This document shows, one piece after another, positions 19,700-49,785 of a stretch of 64,000 nucleotides of DNA. The notes beneath the pieces are model-generated. The model had not been told where the DNA came from. It was given only the letters and a program-made list of their open reading frames with translations, and made no database searches. The stretch spans positions 372,001 to 436,000 of the forward strand of contig NZ_OCMS01000001.1 in NCBI RefSeq assembly GCF_900215325.1. Direction: 5' to 3'. The number at the start of each line of letters is the position of its first letter. The first letter of the stretch is position 1. Source of the DNA: Fibrobacter sp. UWB16. GTDB lineage: Bacteria > Fibrobacterota > Fibrobacteria > Fibrobacterales > Fibrobacteraceae. The position numbers and the translations under genes are program-made.

Positions 19700-19740
19700 A
19701 TTATCCTCTTTTGGTTTTTGATTCTAAATTTAGCAATATA

Positions 19741-20709
19741 ATGGACAATTCTGTTAAAACATTCACGCATATTTCTGAATTTTTAGACTATTTGGGCAAT
19801 GATTTTACCGGTTTGACAAGCGAAATGCGCGCAAACCTCGACCAAGAGCCCACATTCGCATTCAACTGTTCCAAGCACTACGCCGACCTCATCAAGAATT
19901 CGGCCGAGCCCGTCAAACTGCTACGCGAGGTTCTACCGAGCAAGGACGAGCTCAAGGAAGCCCCCGGCTTTGTCGATGACCCCGTCGGGGACCTCCCCGC
20001 CGGCAAGTCCGAATGCATCTTGCAAAAGTACGAGAACCGCGCCCTCATCGTTTCGACTTCTGCCTGCGGTGTGCGCTGCAGGTTCTGCTTCAGACGCAAC
20101 TACCCCTTCCAGGACACACAGAATATCGCGAGTGAAGTTTCGAACTGGCTGGATGTCCATACGAGCATTTGGGAAGTGATACTCTCGGGTGGAGACCCGC
20201 TCACGCTTGGCCCGGGACCGTTCCGCGACCTCGTGGAAGCAATCGCATTCCACCCGTCTGTGACGACGCTCCGCATCCACACGCGACTCCCGATCATGCG
20301 ACCGGACCTCGTGATGCAGCATTTTGAACTTTTGCGAGAACTCCCCGCACGTTTCAACTGCGTGCTCGTGGTACACGTGAACCACCCTGATGAACTCGAC
20401 GAAGAATCAGCCGCCGTTTTCGCACAACTTAAATTCAGCGGTTGGACACTCTTGAACCAAAGCGTTCTTTTGAAAGGCGTGAACGATGACGCCGAAACAC
20501 TTGAACGCTTGAGCCGCAGGCTGTTCGAGCAAGGTGTACTCCCCTACTACCTGCACCAACTCGACCACGCGAAAGGCGTTGCCCATTTTGAAGTCAGCGA
20601 CGAACGCGCCCGAGAACTCATCGCACAAATCCGCACCAAGCTCCCCGGCTATCAAGTGCCCAAGCTCGTGCGAGAAATCGCCGGAGAAAAGAGCAAAACG
20701 CCGGTGTAG
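19741..20709 (+). CDS. epmB: EF-P beta-lysylation protein EpmB (lysine 2,3-aminomutase-like)
   Basis: Radical-SAM, PLP-dependent enzyme that converts lysine to beta-lysine for attachment to EF-P Lys34. The 322-aa protein has the [4Fe-4S] motif CGVRCRFCFRRNYPF, the SAM-binding EVILSGGDPLTL, LRIHTRLPIMRP and, near the C-terminus, YYLHQLDHAKGVAHF with the PLP-lysine region. It is shorter than clostridial lysine aminomutases (about 415 aa) and matches the EpmB length (342 in E. coli). The pairing with efp supports EpmB over a catabolic aminomutase. The ATG at 19741 lacks a clear ribosome site. The frame continues 10 codons upstream, but that would reach efp's promoter. Confidence 0.92.
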   Translation: MDNSVKTFTHISEFLDYLGNDFTGLTSEMRANLDQEPTFAFNCSKHYADLIKNSAEPVKLLREVLPSKDELKEAPGFVDDPVGDLPAGKSECILQKYENRALIVSTSACGVRCRFCFRRNYPFQDTQNIASEVSNWLDVHTSIWEVILSGGDPLTLGPGPFRDLVEAIAFHPSVTTLRIHTRLPIMRPDLVMQHFELLRELPARFNCVLVVHVNHPDELDEESAAVFAQLKFSGWTLLNQSVLLKGVNDDAETLERLSRRLFEQGVLPYYLHQLDHAKGVAHFEVSDERARELIAQIRTKLPGYQVPKLVREIAGEKSKTPV

Positions 20710-20739: not shown

Positions 20740-20775
20740 AAAATCCTCCGCAACAAAGCGAAGGATTTTGTTTTT
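20740..20775 (+). terminator. Intrinsic terminator of epmB
   Basis: AAAATCCTCCGC (20740-20751) pairs with GCGAAGGATTTT (20758-20769), one mismatch, then GTTTTT. The right arm is also the start of a 51-bp direct repeat. Confidence 0.85.
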
Positions 20776-20803
20776 AACAAGCCAGCACAGATTCGATGAA
20801 TTT
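20753..20803. repeat. 51-bp direct repeat, left copy
   Basis: Identical at 50 of 51 positions to 22164-22214. It contains the loop and right arm of the epmB terminator plus the last nine codons and stop of the minus-strand gene at 22185. It marks the left edge of the potassium-channel cassette. Confidence 0.9.
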
Positions 20804-20823
20804 AATTTTTATCGTTTTTTTCG

Positions 20824-22035
20824 TTATTTATCATAACGATTAAGATATTTTCTTGTAAAAGCAAGCAAAAAAGCACCTCCAGATAAGACACCGAATATAC
20901 CTTCTAGACATGCAAATAAGCGAGCCCAACCTACAGGGGTTATATCGCCGTAACCAACAGTAGTTATAGTAATCACTGAAAAATATAACGATTTTAAGAA
21001 ATTATTTCCCACACAAATCGCTTTGCCACATTCATCAAAAAAATCCAACAAAGAAACATCCATTGTACCCAAATACAACAGTTCCAAAATTTTCTTTTTC
21101 GCACAAATCACATTTTCACAATCATCAACGCACAAATCGCCAAAAGGATTTTCTAGTCCAAAGCAATAAATTAACGCAAACCCCAATATAACAAACAAAA
21201 GCATGGAAAAAATAACCCGAGGTCTAATCATTCCTCCACATAATATGTAACATACTTTATGTAATCCAGACAAACCTTGCTTATTCTTATAATAAATCAA
21301 ATCCGCATAATGATCTACGGTAACACATAATTTGTTTTTTTCAAAAAAATCAAAAACATTATCAACTTTTTCTTTTTTTTCACCAACTTCACCTTTAGGG
21401 TAATCTTTTAAATCAATCTTGCTAAATGGAATTTTCGAAAGAGATATGGGAAAATTTTTCCATTCACCCACCCATTTCCCAGAAAGCGAATTTTTCACTT
21501 CAAATTTAGTACAAAACTTAGACTCCAATATCACTTCGGATGAACCCATCAAAAATGAACGGATACAGCAACACATCAGATTACCCAAAGTTACATTAGC
21601 AGCTTCACTCGATAAAGTTCCCATAGAAACACAGTTTCCAAACACATGATATTTTCCAAAACGCAAAACAATTGAATCAATCATCGTTTCTTCAATAGAC
21701 AAAAGACACAAATCAGCCCAAACATCCAACGCTCCAAAAACAAAGCAATTTTGAATTACTATTTCTTTTGCATCATAGAATTGAAGATTCCCTATAATTA
21801 CACAATTTTGTAATACAATTTTCTTTTTGACACGAAAACTAGGCAAAGTTTTTTCTCGAACTATAGCATTAGCCAACACAACACCTTCACTTGAGCTTTT
21901 CTTAATGTTATATAAATCAAGAAAAGTCATTAACTTAAATTGACTATCTTCAGCTTTTTTATCAACAATATCATTAAAAATTTTCAAGCATTGCTTTCTA
22001 GTGTATTTTTTATATTTGTCTATTAAATTTTCCAT
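20824..22035 (-). CDS. Two-helix potassium channel fused to a beta-helix-like N-terminal domain
   Basis: A 403-aa membrane protein. The C-terminal 135 residues are a minimal K+ channel pore: first helix about 275-295 (VIFSMLLFVILGFALIYCFG), a pore helix, the selectivity filter TVGYGD at 359-364, and a second helix with GVLSGGAFLLAFTRKYL. The loop before the pore is Cys/Asp-rich. Residues about 50-200 have a repeating hydrophobic pattern (KKIVLQNCVIIGNLQFYDAK, then EIVIQNCFVFGALDVWAD) suggesting a stacked beta-helix, like pentapeptide-repeat channels but not a clear match. Base composition is much more AT-rich than the neighbouring core genes, and the gene lies between 51-bp direct repeats, so recent acquisition is likely. 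What gates it is unknown. Confidence 0.85.
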   Translation of the reverse strand: MENLIDKYKKYTRKQCLKIFNDIVDKKAEDSQFKLMTFLDLYNIKKSSSEGVVLANAIVREKTLPSFRVKKKIVLQNCVIIGNLQFYDAKEIVIQNCFVFGALDVWADLCLLSIEETMIDSIVLRFGKYHVFGNCVSMGTLSSEAANVTLGNLMCCCIRSFLMGSSEVILESKFCTKFEVKNSLSGKWVGEWKNFPISLSKIPFSKIDLKDYPKGEVGEKKEKVDNVFDFFEKNKLCVTVDHYADLIYYKNKQGLSGLHKVCYILCGGMIRPRVIFSMLLFVILGFALIYCFGLENPFGDLCVDDCENVICAKKKILELLYLGTMDVSLLDFFDECGKAICVGNNFLKSLYFSVITITTVGYGDITPVGWARLFACLEGIFGVLSGGAFLLAFTRKYLNRYDK

Positions 22036-22133
22036 TATTAATCCTTTATTTCACCGTGAAAAATTTAGAACAAAATTCTATTAGTAACTAATACATTTTT
22101 ATTACTTTGCTAATTTTTTCGACGTAAGTCCCC

Positions 22134-22152
22134 AAAATTAAAGTTTAATTTT
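22134..22152. repeat. Perfect inverted repeat near the right end of the channel cassette
   Basis: AAAATTAAA and TTTAATTTT around a single G, 11 bp inside the right 51-bp repeat and about 100 bp upstream of the channel gene. It could be an operator, a terminator remnant or a recombination signal. Confidence 0.5.
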
Positions 22153-22163
22153 CGTAGGGATTC

Positions 22164-22214
22164 ACAAAGCGAAGGATTTTATTTTTAACAAGCCAGCACA
22201 GATTCGATGAATTT
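22164..22214. repeat. 51-bp direct repeat, right copy
   Basis: Second copy of 20753-20803. The left arm of the terminator hairpin is missing here, which indicates that the left copy keeps the original junction. Confidence 0.9.
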
Positions 22215-23237
22215 GCGCTCTAGGAATTCGTCGAAATCTGTTGGACGCATAACACGCAGGTTATCGCCTTTGCTATAAACCAAGCAATTTCCTTCAAGCC
22301 CGCCATACCAATTCATGCCCTTGAAAACAAGAGTCATCCGGTCATCAAAAGCATAATCTATGGCGTCATATTCAGAGTCCAGTGCAGTTTCTACACCGTT
22401 CAGGTATGGATGGAAAAGCGCGGCGTTGTACTTGGGCTTGAATTTTTCGACAAACACGCTTTCGGCAGCCATCGAGAGCAATTCGATAGACGGCAACCGT
22501 TTGCCAGCCAACGGCGCTTGGAATTCATTTATCGAAACCGCATTACCGATCAAAAGACTATTATCCCGTTCTTCGACATCAAAGAACAAGAGCACAACGT
22601 CGTCGCGAATATCCTCGCAATCCTCAATTTCAGATTCAAGAAGTTCAAGGAATGTTTCGTGATGACGATGATGCTTCACGGCGCTTTCGTCCACCACAAT
22701 TCCAATGTACATCGGTTCATAATTCCAAAGGAAACATTTGGTTTTATCCAAGTTTGGAATTCGAAGCAACCTATTAGAATATAAGTACAAGAGTTTCTCG
22801 GGCGTAAGCCAAGCAACAAAAGAGTCATCGTCCAGACACTTTTTCAGTTCCTTGTCGGTCGCCTTTTCATAGAACGCCGTATCAATCTCATAGAATTTTA
22901 TTCCGTGAGTTTTTGCGACAACTTCATCTTTGGCGAGAATGTGCGGCTTTTCTGCACCAACATCAACAACAAGAGTTTTCTTTTCACTCGGCTTAAACAG
23001 CGGTTCAGTTGCAGGGATAGAAACACTTACTCGACCACATTCGCTCACGAGGTCAAGATCAACTTTATGGCCCGAAAATTTCACATTACAAAAATCAATG
23101 CGAAGCTTTTTTGCCACCATATAGACGCGAGCTTTTCCAAGCGATTTACGATAATCGACATCATTCTTAGCCCACGCAATATCGTGGAAAGCTAACGGGC
23201 AACACGCCAACTTCAATGTCGTAGAAATCACCTTCAT
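22185..23237 (-). CDS. Uncharacterised 350-aa protein
   Basis: Not recognised with confidence. No signal peptide or membrane segment. Cysteines are scattered. The middle has PMYIGIVVDESAVKHHRHHE followed by a helix, then about 75 residues later MAAESVFVEKFKPKYN. This spacing of Y-x-G, a His-rich helix and E-x(5)-K-x-KPKYN resembles a group of uncharacterised proteins with a GIY-YIG-like nuclease layout, but the match is weak and is an inference only. Its last nine codons and stop are duplicated 1.4 kb away at the left end of the channel cassette, so the gene's end was the insertion site. Codon use is closer to the core genes than the channel gene's. Confidence 0.65.
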   Translation of the reverse strand: MKVISTTLKLACCPLAFHDIAWAKNDVDYRKSLGKARVYMVAKKLRIDFCNVKFSGHKVDLDLVSECGRVSVSIPATEPLFKPSEKKTLVVDVGAEKPHILAKDEVVAKTHGIKFYEIDTAFYEKATDKELKKCLDDDSFVAWLTPEKLLYLYSNRLLRIPNLDKTKCFLWNYEPMYIGIVVDESAVKHHRHHETFLELLESEIEDCEDIRDDVVLLFFDVEERDNSLLIGNAVSINEFQAPLAGKRLPSIELLSMAAESVFVEKFKPKYNAALFHPYLNGVETALDSEYDAIDYAFDDRMTLVFKGMNWYGGLEGNCLVYSKGDNLRVMRPTDFDEFLERKFIESVLAC

Positions 23238-43522: not shown

Positions 43523-43705
43523 CTTAGATTCCTTTTTTAATTTCTGAAGGAAATATAGGAAAGAGAGTGGTTATAGGGCGCCGCTAGTGTGACCGAGCTA
43601 CAACTTCTTTTGGGGATTTTCCGAAAAATTGACCTTTTCCCGAGAATTTTGGACAATTGCGAGTTTTTCAATACTTTTCCCCTCGCTATTTTTTACATTA
43701 ATACT

Positions 43706-44725
43706 ATGAACAAGTTCTTATCATCAATTGTACTTTTAGCAGCAACGGCTTCATTTTCGTTTGACGACTGGTTTGGGTATGAAATCGTCCCATACGTCTA
43801 TACCAATCTTGATGGAGGTACAGAAACCGCTGGTTACTGGCTATTTTCCGACGATCATCAGCAAAACGGCTTATCAAGGACCCTATTGCCAACCGAGCTC
43901 GGCACTGAATACTGGGATTTTGCGATTGAACCCCTTCTTGAATTTTGCAATGGTGTTTGCGGCACAGCCGTACTTGATCAGGGAACTTCTACAGCAGCCC
44001 CATTCATATCAGCATATATCAATGTCGCAGGAGAAACCTCTAAAACAGATGACACCCCAATCGCCGCAGACGCCTCTGACTGGGGAGGCATCTGCATTAT
44101 ATACAAATCCGAAGTTGCACCGATTCTTGAACTTGGCCTCAGCCAAAATGTTGAAGCAACCCTAAGCAATGCCATTCCTGCAAAAATTCTAGATGAAGCC
44201 CCAAATGTGGCAAAAACGCAATGCATTCCGTGGTCTGAATTCGAACAACCCTCCTGGTACACAGGCGAAGTAAAAATTAATGGAGAACAAGCGGCAAAGC
44301 AACTTGTTTACATCAATTTCAAAATCCAGGCAGATCCCGGCCGCTACCGTTTTAACCTCTGTGCCATAGGACCTTATAAACACGCTTCTGTATTCAACCA
44401 AGACATCGATAATTATTGTCAATTGCCAAATGACACCAGTGCAACAGCAGCAATTTATAAGCCCAAACAGACGCTACACATCGGCACATTCTCTCGCCTC
44501 AAGTTCCACTTCATCAAAGATCGCAACAGTTTATTGGTAAAAAGTCCAATAGCATCTGAACTTAAGGTTCTCATTTCCGATGTTCGCGGAATACTCAAAG
44601 GAATATATGAAGGAGACGCCGCAACCAATCATTACATTCCGCTTGATAATTTGAATCGGGGCGTCTATATATTGAATGTTGTTTCCGGCAATAATACGCA
44701 AAAATACAAGATTCAAATAAGATAA
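43706..44725 (+). CDS. Secreted protein with sorting-type C-terminal tail
   Basis: A 339-aa protein not matched to an enzyme family. The start MNKFLSSIVLLAATASFSF gives a signal peptide. The open frame runs 39 codons further upstream without a usable start. The mature part has EIVPYVYTNLDGG, four Cys in the first half (EFCNGVCG), and a beta-rich body with KINGEQAAKQLVYINFKIQ. The C-terminal 60 residues (LLVKSPIASELKVLISDVRGILKGIYEG, then YIPLDNLNRGVYILNVVSG) are the T9SS/gliding-type sorting tail. Possibly a cell-surface carbohydrate-binding protein, but that is an inference. Composition is AT-rich. Confidence 0.75.
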   Translation: MNKFLSSIVLLAATASFSFDDWFGYEIVPYVYTNLDGGTETAGYWLFSDDHQQNGLSRTLLPTELGTEYWDFAIEPLLEFCNGVCGTAVLDQGTSTAAPFISAYINVAGETSKTDDTPIAADASDWGGICIIYKSEVAPILELGLSQNVEATLSNAIPAKILDEAPNVAKTQCIPWSEFEQPSWYTGEVKINGEQAAKQLVYINFKIQADPGRYRFNLCAIGPYKHASVFNQDIDNYCQLPNDTSATAAIYKPKQTLHIGTFSRLKFHFIKDRNSLLVKSPIASELKVLISDVRGILKGIYEGDAATNHYIPLDNLNRGVYILNVVSGNNTQKYKIQIR

Positions 44726-44739
44726 TTTATAATTGCAAT

Positions 44740-44774
44740 CATACAAAAAGGGCCGCATCGCTGCGGTCCTTTTT
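44740..44774. repeat. 35-bp direct repeat containing a terminator, left copy
   Basis: Exactly the same 35 bases as 45663-45697: CATACAAAAAG, then GGCCGC/GCGGTC arms, then CCTTTTT. It acts as the terminator of the secreted-protein gene and marks the left side of the toxin-antitoxin cassette. Confidence 0.9.
44745..44774 (+). terminator. Intrinsic terminator of the secreted-protein gene
   Basis: AAAAAGGGCCGC (44745-44756) pairs with GCGGTCCTTTTT (44763-44774) with one G-T, followed by more Ts. The A-run on the other side makes it usable on both strands. Confidence 0.85.
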
Positions 44775-44818: not shown

Positions 44819-45247
44819 TTAGAACAAGCCTACTTCCTGCAAAAATCGGGAAAACGTCATTATACGACAGCCTTCAATTTCACCTATATCAAGTAAATCA
44901 TCGTCGCCCGAAACTAAATAAATAGCCTTAGACTTGATAGCAAGCTCTAACAAATAATCATCTTTAGGATCGCGACATCTTTGAGGAATATCATCTAAAT
45001 CGAAATTCAAAGTATGCAAAACAAGCCAATTATCCAATGCTTTAACAGCATCCTCCGAAAAATACTTTCGAAATTTTGGACGTAATGCAACATTATGAAT
45101 TTCGTCTCTCATTATTTGCGTCGATACAAAATCATATTCAATATTTCTGAACAATTCAAGCAAAGCCCCTAATCGGCGACCAATAAGGAAACTTATCCAT
45201 AAATTAGTATCAACGACAATTCTTTGTGGTTTCTTACTTTTTTGCAA
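44819..45247 (-). CDS. PIN-domain toxin (endoribonuclease)
   Basis: A 142-aa PIN-family toxin that would cleave RNA when freed from its antitoxin. Acidic metal ligands are visible in IVVDTNLWISFLIGRR (first Asp), RCRDPKDDYLLELAIKSKA (middle Asp/Glu) and YLVSGDDDLL (late Asp). The preferred start is the TTG at 45247, which has GAGG six bases upstream and overlaps the antitoxin by 14 bases. The ATG at 45304 would overlap it by 71. It is part of a two-gene cassette between two identical terminator repeats. Confidence 0.88.
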   Translation of the reverse strand: MQKSKKPQRIVVDTNLWISFLIGRRLGALLELFRNIEYDFVSTQIMRDEIHNVALRPKFRKYFSEDAVKALDNWLVLHTLNFDLDDIPQRCRDPKDDYLLELAIKSKAIYLVSGDDDLLDIGEIEGCRIMTFSRFLQEVGLF

Positions 45248-45482
45248 GGCGCGCCTCGTACATTTCCTGACGAACAGATTCACATTCCTCGCGAATTTCA
45301 TCATCAGTCAAATCACAAGGCGCAACTAAATCACTCAAGCGACCAAAGCTTTCAGCACGGTCTGCAAGAGTTAAATCACGACATAGTTGAGCACGCTCTG
45401 CATCAGATAGCTGCAAAGCCAACGACATTATCTGGCTATACGTAAACTTCTTTGTTGCGGGAGTAGACATAAATGCCCTCAT
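45234..45482 (-). CDS. Antitoxin partner of the PIN toxin
   Basis: An 82-aa protein upstream of and overlapping the PIN gene, the normal order for a type II antitoxin. The first part (TKKFTYSQIMSLALQLSDAERAQLCRDLTL) looks like a dimerising helical domain of the RHH/AbrB-like size, and the acidic tail (LTDDEIREECESVRQEMYEARLAKK) fits a toxin-wrapping segment. I cannot assign a named family. The ATG at 45482 has AAGGAG ten bases upstream. A later ATG (45470) is possible but has no ribosome site. Confidence 0.78.
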   Translation of the reverse strand: MRAFMSTPATKKFTYSQIMSLALQLSDAERAQLCRDLTLADRAESFGRLSDLVAPCDLTDDEIREECESVRQEMYEARLAKK

Positions 45483-45626
45483 ACAGCAAAATCTCCTTGT
45501 AATATAAATTTTTTCCATTCTTTATGCAAATCCCCATAGGATTACACAATTACGTACGCAAAATTCATGCCATATGAAAAATTACCGTTTTTATGCGAAA
45601 AACGGCATTTCGACATCTTCGAAAAA

Positions 45627-45662: not shown

Positions 45663-45697
45663 CATACAAAAAGGGCCGCATCGCTGCGGTCCTTTTT
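45663..45697. repeat. 35-bp direct repeat containing a terminator, right copy
   Basis: Exact copy of 44740-44774. It serves as the terminator between the cassette and the convergent sdhB gene. Confidence 0.9.
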
Positions 45698-45708
45698 GCG
45701 TTTAGGGC

Positions 45709-45734
45709 GATGCCCGCTCGGAGGCGGGCATGAC
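45709..45734. repeat. GGAGAT-type hairpin repeat
   Basis: GAT, stem GCCCGC/GCGGGC, then ATGAC, just downstream of sdhB. Confidence 0.72.
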
Positions 45735-45745
45735 AATACCGAAAA

Positions 45746-49292: not shown

Positions 49293-49332
49293 TTGAGTCT
49301 ACTCCTTAGAAGGATGGTTTTATTGTTAAAAA

Positions 49333-49785
49333 TTAGAGGACGCAGCAGGCCTTGAGAGAAGGCATTTCGTAAGCGTAGCGTTCTTCCTTCTTGAACCAGA
49401 AGTCGAGTTCGCGTTCTGCAGAAGCCGGACTATCGGAGCTGTGAACGACGTTTTCGGTCATGGAAGGAGCAAAATCGTAGCGGAGGGTACCCGGTTCCGC
49501 CTTGGCAGGATTGGTAGCACCGTTAATGGCGCGGACCTTTGCAATTGCGTTTTCGCCACCGAGAGCAAGCATCACGGACGGACCCTTGGTCATGTAGGCT
49601 TCGAGTTCCGGGAAGAACGGCTTTTCGACGTGTTCAGCGTAAAAACCGCGTGCATCTTCGGAGGTCATCTGGTGCATCTTGACGGCGCAGACAGAGAGAC
49701 CGGCACTGATGTAGCGATCGATAATACGACCAACCAAGCCAGACTTGACTGCGTTCGGCTTGATCATTGCAAATGTCATTTCCAT
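49333..49785 (-). CDS. ndk: Nucleoside diphosphate kinase
   Basis: Transfers the terminal phosphate between nucleoside di- and triphosphates. The 150-aa protein shows TFAMIKPNAVKSGLVG, GKFRE-equivalent HVEKPFFPELEAYMTKGP, RAINGATNPAKAEPGTLR and the active-site block NVVHSSDSPASAERE (phosphorylated His). It is 41 bp after the PPIase-like gene and 40 bp before sdhC on the same strand, so it may sit in a longer unit with sdhCAB. Confidence 0.97.
   Translation of the reverse strand: MEMTFAMIKPNAVKSGLVGRIIDRYISAGLSVCAVKMHQMTSEDARGFYAEHVEKPFFPELEAYMTKGPSVMLALGGENAIAKVRAINGATNPAKAEPGTLRYDFAPSMTENVVHSSDSPASAERELDFWFKKEERYAYEMPSLKACCVL

Follow-up and report, generated by a model that had tools for sequence, protein, structure and literature searches.

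Organisation of the channel locus

Analysis of the window, a stretch of 64,000 nucleotides from Fibrobacter sp. UWB16, revealed a 1,360-bp segment (positions 20804–22163; GC content 0.305) enclosed by two copies of a direct repeat of 51 nt (20753–20803 and 22164–22214), which are identical at 50 positions and differ at a single non-coding base. The segment is flanked on the left by a conserved epmB-like gene (19711–20709, plus strand; TIGR03821, 321 bits, under the cut-off of 369) and on the right by a gene on the minus strand that matches no Pfam family (22185–23237, hereafter the 22185 gene). Each repeat copy comprises the loop and one arm of a hairpin together with the last 9 codons and the stop codon of a 22185-type gene. 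In the right copy, the gene end is that of the 22185 gene itself and the hairpin is without its other arm, whereas in the left copy the gene end is an orphan and the loop and right arm belong to a complete hairpin terminator (20740–20769), which separates epmB from the position where the convergently oriented 22185 gene formerly ended. Correspondingly, folding yielded −17.0 kcal/mol (z −6.2) for the left copy vs −2.4 kcal/mol for the right one. As the hairpin sits between two convergent genes, it is able to serve the 22185 gene as well as epmB. The insert interrupts neither neighbour, and transcription of the channel gene probably stops at the complete terminator.

The enclosed segment contains one plausible gene (20824–22035, minus strand), which encodes a two-helix potassium-channel-like protein of 403 aa. 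A TTVGYGD selectivity filter and a match to Ion_trans_2 (E=6e-15; 55.3 bits vs the Pfam gathering cut-off of 22.5) place the product among the K+ channels of this family. At third codon positions, the channel gene has a GC content of 0.24, whereas epmB reaches 0.65 and the 22185 gene 0.45. Overall, structure prediction for the protein was of low quality (mean pLDDT of 50), and an N-terminal beta-solenoid spanning residues of about 50–175 is proposed with moderate confidence. In all these respects the first-pass annotation, which had described the repeats and their content, the single AT-rich channel gene between them and a full hairpin at the left copy only, was confirmed.

The same annotation had proposed a search for further copies of the 51-mer. 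Two copies were found in this genome and none in 79 congeners when up to 3 mismatches were allowed, so that a dispersed element was rejected on the basis of just two occurrences in 80 genomes. The repeat at the channel locus reached a score of 48, whereas by chance no more than 14 was reached at the flanks of other junctions, both in this region and in relatives. Several other candidate explanations were set aside as well. No recombinase is present within the insert, as had been noted before, and tRNA-linked integration was dismissed because a tRNA is absent near the locus. Paired RYYYAAC / GTTRRRY attC boxes, as expected for an integron cassette, occur neither in nor beside the repeats, and PADLOC gave no match for the channel locus that would point to a defence gene.

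Distribution of the channel and its neighbours

A relative of the channel was detected in only one of the 79 congeners, Fibrobacter sp. UBA7003 (G046), with about 30% identity, and a search of genome contigs with the channel returned the same organism only. As tblastn gave 0 matches in 72,556 plasmids and 0 in 50,697 phages, cargo of a plasmid or phage was rejected as an explanation; viral contigs likewise contained no confirmed match.

The 22185 gene is present in 11 of the 80 genomes of the genus. In six of them (G073, G070, G004, G014, G085 and G093) it is kept apart from epmB by all or part of a module that encodes an outer-membrane-like protein, a lipoprotein and a TIGR02147 protein; hisB is next in order. 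The same order of epmB, module and 22185 gene was found on partial contigs of G006 and G075, and G086 has just a remnant of the module. Thus, most relatives in which both neighbours could be placed carry two or three genes of this module between them, and the joined flanks of the channel insert have no contiguous match in any sampled relative. That the left junction is ancestral is therefore unproven, and the empty one-copy site for which the first-pass annotation had suggested searching related Fibrobacter genomes was found in none of those available. Either the module must have disappeared beforehand or the entire stretch from epmB to the 22185 gene must have been exchanged, and the one-copy state of the channel locus must have existed in an unsampled ancestor. 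A donor form of the locus was found in none of the sampled genomes, and a divergence profile drawn for the 22185 gene with three orthologues as reference gave no informative pattern. A genome-wide query with a TIGR02147 (Fsuc_second) protein yielded 34 matches in the genome studied here (G000), none of them at the epmB locus, where relatives have one.

The variable content of the epmB–hisB interval also bears on the possibility that epmB was formerly adjoined by a second 22185 gene, of which a deletion left just the tail. Such a deletion could leave an orphan 3′ tail, and strong variation in this interval would accommodate it; however, no congener has two 22185 genes, and other units of this genome with the same scar have one-copy sites in relatives. 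We consider this origin highly improbable. That the channel gene is an insertion, as had been claimed before, is in turn well supported by its occurrence in a single congener, its foreign composition and the insertions marked by like repeats elsewhere in the genome, although this support does not come directly from the channel locus itself.

Repeats of the same architecture mark insertions elsewhere in the genome

A second case lies within the window, where two identical copies of a 35-bp repeat (44740–44774 and 45663–45697, the right one adjoining sdhB) enclose a VapBC-like pair on the minus strand, comprising a PIN-domain toxin-like protein (44819–45304; PIN_3, E=2e-14) and a VapB15-like antitoxin (45234–45518; weak match, below the cut-off). 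The repeat corresponds to the terminator between the gene at 43589–44725 and sdhB. In G086 and G093 the locus is without the VapBC-like pair and has one terminator copy, and the joined flanks align without gaps over 527 bp at 97.9% and 98.9% identity, respectively. By these alignments, the VapBC-like case proves the principle that flanking repeats mark a true insertion.

A repeat scan covering 1.256 Mb of contig C1 identified two more clear cases. Beside purL, a 43-bp terminator repeat with 43/43 identical copies (C1:46631–46673 and 49311–49353) encloses a radical-SAM/SPASM-like gene and a 312-aa precursor with KYGYPC repeats (G000 C1:46631–49353, locus L253), which looks like an uncharacterised unit of the RiPP type. 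G073 has one copy of the repeat, and a contiguous match was also found in G004, while the unit with both 43-bp copies is present in G090, G093, G086 and G070. Overall, the radical-SAM/peptide unit occurs at the purL site in five species and elsewhere in five others. In the second case, a 103-bp repeat (C1:1088731–1088833 and 1089727–1089829) represents the last 34 codons of a TPR-like gene and flanks a lipoprotein gene. G090 has an empty site with one copy, G000 and G070 have the insertion junction in common, and in G001 the lipoprotein gene follows the same TPR-like anchor gene without a second copy, a donor-like form. The sequence comparisons thus indicate that at least three other acquired units of the genome carry the same scar, each with a single-copy site in related species.

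Other repeats were set aside. The repeat at C1 184630 appeared to be an upstream region that recurs at similar operons, further repeats on C1 lay within coding paralogues, and the one at C1:562001–564583 involves tRNA-Leu copies that are also tandem in relatives; here, two identical 138-bp stretches with tRNA-Leu surround a GH5-like endoglucanase gene, and the copies lie close together in some relatives. A scan of C2:1–400000 yielded no further terminator or gene-end case. Separately, we observed a direct repeat of about 164 bp with small indels around a toxin-antitoxin-like gene pair (C1:237818–239510), a 148-bp repeat near efp in G086, and a short GC-rich hairpin repeat (GATGCCCGCTCGGAGGCGGGCATGACA) at about 45704–45740 of the window, of which many dispersed copies exist across Fibrobacter genomes.

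Of the 16 variable junctions inspected in several genomes around the window, just two, those at the channel and the VapBC-like pair, had a repeat that stood out clearly from background. Not every gene gain thus carries such a scar, and since the scan sought repeats it gives no fraction of gains that leave one. Three of the four repeats overlap a terminator, two of them being pure terminators without a coding part. This may reflect selection, possibly since DNA inserted between two terminators would leave the genes on either side undisturbed. A further explanation would be a dedicated, so far unrecognised insertion process of Fibrobacter aimed at terminators and gene 3′ ends, in which a recombinase or nuclease, guided by hairpins and acting in trans, would introduce small units of promoter and gene while duplicating 35–100 bp of the target, such that both neighbours would keep their terminators. 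This reading appears improbable to us.

Single-anchor integration as a proposed source of the repeats

The configuration of an intact gene, foreign cargo and a partial copy of the gene end is found at the channel and at other loci, and a recipient-type site free of the insert exists for the three sister cases. We therefore propose, with about an even chance of being right, that the channel is a horizontally gained single-gene insert whose repeats are the scar of a single-anchor integration. On the incoming DNA, the channel gene would stand behind a 22185-type 3′ gene end, which would pair with the 3′ end of the resident 22185 gene. The other end of the fragment would be linked, in the absence of real homology, at a point ten codons (stop included) short of the end of the resident gene or, alternatively, the fragment would circularise first and enter by one crossover. 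The product would be an intact 22185 gene with the channel downstream in the same orientation; on the epmB side, a 51-bp orphan tail would remain together with the native terminator.

An indication for such an origin comes from the coding repeats. Repeat copies of the TPR-like gene show 7 differences in two genomes, every one of them synonymous (expected fraction 0.22, P=2e-5). A comparable pattern was found in G046, where the channel homologue is part of an 8-kb island that also contains IS3-like transposase ORFs. On one side of this island stands an intact acyl-CoA-dehydrogenase-like gene, on the other a 547-bp duplicate of the 3′ end of that gene (L083 4827–5373 and 13751–14297). Here, 26/36 differences between the copies fall in synonymous codons (P=1e-10). 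Identity to G003 amounts to 94.7% for the orphan fragment, 93.1% for the 3′ part of the intact gene and 95.4% for its 5′ part. These values would fit an intact gene that received its 3′ end from a donor and an orphan that is native, although other relatives do not clearly separate the two. Just upstream of the G046 channel homologue, a 76-bp repeat (93%; L083 8542–8617 and 10886–10961) copies the 5′ region of a neighbouring gene and constitutes a mirror-image scar.

Copies that differ mostly at synonymous sites either diverged inside separate intact genes or one of them was later exchanged by recombination, and such a later replacement could be the source of the differences. A fresh duplication would leave the non-genic copy diverging regardless of codons. 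The synonymous bias consequently speaks against a target duplication, in which 35–103 bp of the target would be copied to both sides of captured DNA at a staggered break or by template switching, as does the wide range of lengths. This alternative is nevertheless consistent with the (near-)identity of the non-coding copies (35/35, 43/43 and 50/51), with one-copy sites that fit exactly, and with the ends of the channel repeat, which form unnatural joints and leave the right copy with half a hairpin. We regard it as unlikely overall, and as possible for the terminator cases.

The first-pass annotation had assumed that long repeats of this kind are normally left by site-specific integration. The repeats would then be attL and attR of a minimal integrative element, either a remnant akin to a CIME or a cassette moved by a recombinase in trans, that targets and restores gene 3′ ends. 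Gene ends are indeed restored at the channel, TPR-like and G046 loci, the insertion junction at the TPR-like gene is the same in G000 and G070, and an element carrying a donor's gene end would likewise give synonymous differences. However, common descent can account for shared junctions, two of the four repeat pairs consist of a terminator alone with no coding part, and the inserts consist of one or two cargo genes and no recombinase. The four loci carry repeats of unrelated sequence and length (35, 43, 51 and 103 bp) without a common motif at the insert ends, and the synonymous differences between coding copies fit an imported gene end of another strain. Overall, site-specific integration seems unlikely and nothing found calls for an integrase; of the features of an integrative element (CIME, IME or genomic island), neither a recombinase within the inserts nor an att core common to the four repeats was found. 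The varying lengths of 35, 43, 51 and 103 bp and the lack of common ends also speak against a transposon with target-site duplication. The mechanism suggested by the earlier reader is thus supported in part.

Taken together, the loci speak more for incoming DNA with a gene end of another strain as its anchor than for a fresh target duplication or an integrase. Synonymous divergence points to a donor allele at two other loci (TPR-like and G046), and the single, non-coding difference between the channel copies is compatible with an imported anchor and a fresh duplication alike. The repeats and the insert are observed, as are the rarity of the channel and the true insertions that repeats of the same architecture mark elsewhere in this genome; from these, we infer by analogy that the channel locus took the same route as the other loci; its anchor would derive from another strain and the joining would proceed in the order given above. 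Counting against single-anchor integration, anchors of 35–51 bp are short for homologous pairing, and the literature searched contained no documentation of natural transformation in Fibrobacter.

Implications and comparison with known systems

Accessory genes are often isolated and their route of arrival is unmarked. Short repeats of a neighbour's end or terminator provide a readable scar of arrival. In one Fibrobacter genome, such scars surround toxin-antitoxin, peptide-natural-product, lipoprotein and channel units, three of them with one-copy sites in related species, and it appears that Fibrobacter acquire genes through insertions in which the end or the terminator of a resident gene is duplicated. 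A systematic scar scan could point to donors and help to order gene gains. It could also test DNA uptake by rumen Fibrobacter, which bears on the genetic tractability of these cellulose degraders.

In CIMEs and other att-flanked elements at gene 3′ ends, direct repeats restore the gene end and a recombinase is absent inside. The Fibrobacter scars differ from these in that the repeats are unrelated from locus to locus, the cargo is a single gene and no partner integrase was seen in the inserts. Minimal mobile elements are defined by differing gene content between the same conserved flanking genes in the absence of mobility genes, and the epmB–hisB interval, in which gene content differs strongly among about ten genomes with no mobility genes, conforms to this definition. 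Flanking repeats, as present in the Fibrobacter scars, are not part of it. In its variable content between conserved genes without mobility genes, the interval resembles the minimal mobile elements of Neisseria (PMC1538595 and references therein).

The closest parallels are single-crossover insertion-duplication and homology-facilitated illegitimate recombination, as studied in the laboratory in Acinetobacter, Streptococcus, Pseudomonas stutzeri and E. coli (PMC3240628). In E. coli, single-crossover integration with duplications of 109–950 bp was the main product (PMC3240628). The Fibrobacter scars would share with those systems one homologous gene end combined with one non-homologous joint or a circularised fragment, as well as a partial duplication of the anchor beside an intact copy. 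They differ in being natural and recurrent in one genome, with repeats down to 35 bp, several of them at transcription terminators, and a cargo of one or two genes. Homology-facilitated illegitimate recombination has also been proposed for T6SS effector-immunity arrays and orphan 3′ regions of Rhs genes (PMC5361080), where, as here, new genes stand behind an anchor and remnants of displaced 3′ regions remain downstream; unlike in those arrays, the Fibrobacter cargo is unrelated and located at unrelated conserved genes, and there is no toxin-immunity exchange at one locus. The type of event is thus already known, while the short anchors, the location at terminators, the small cargo and the recurrence in one genome are unusual.
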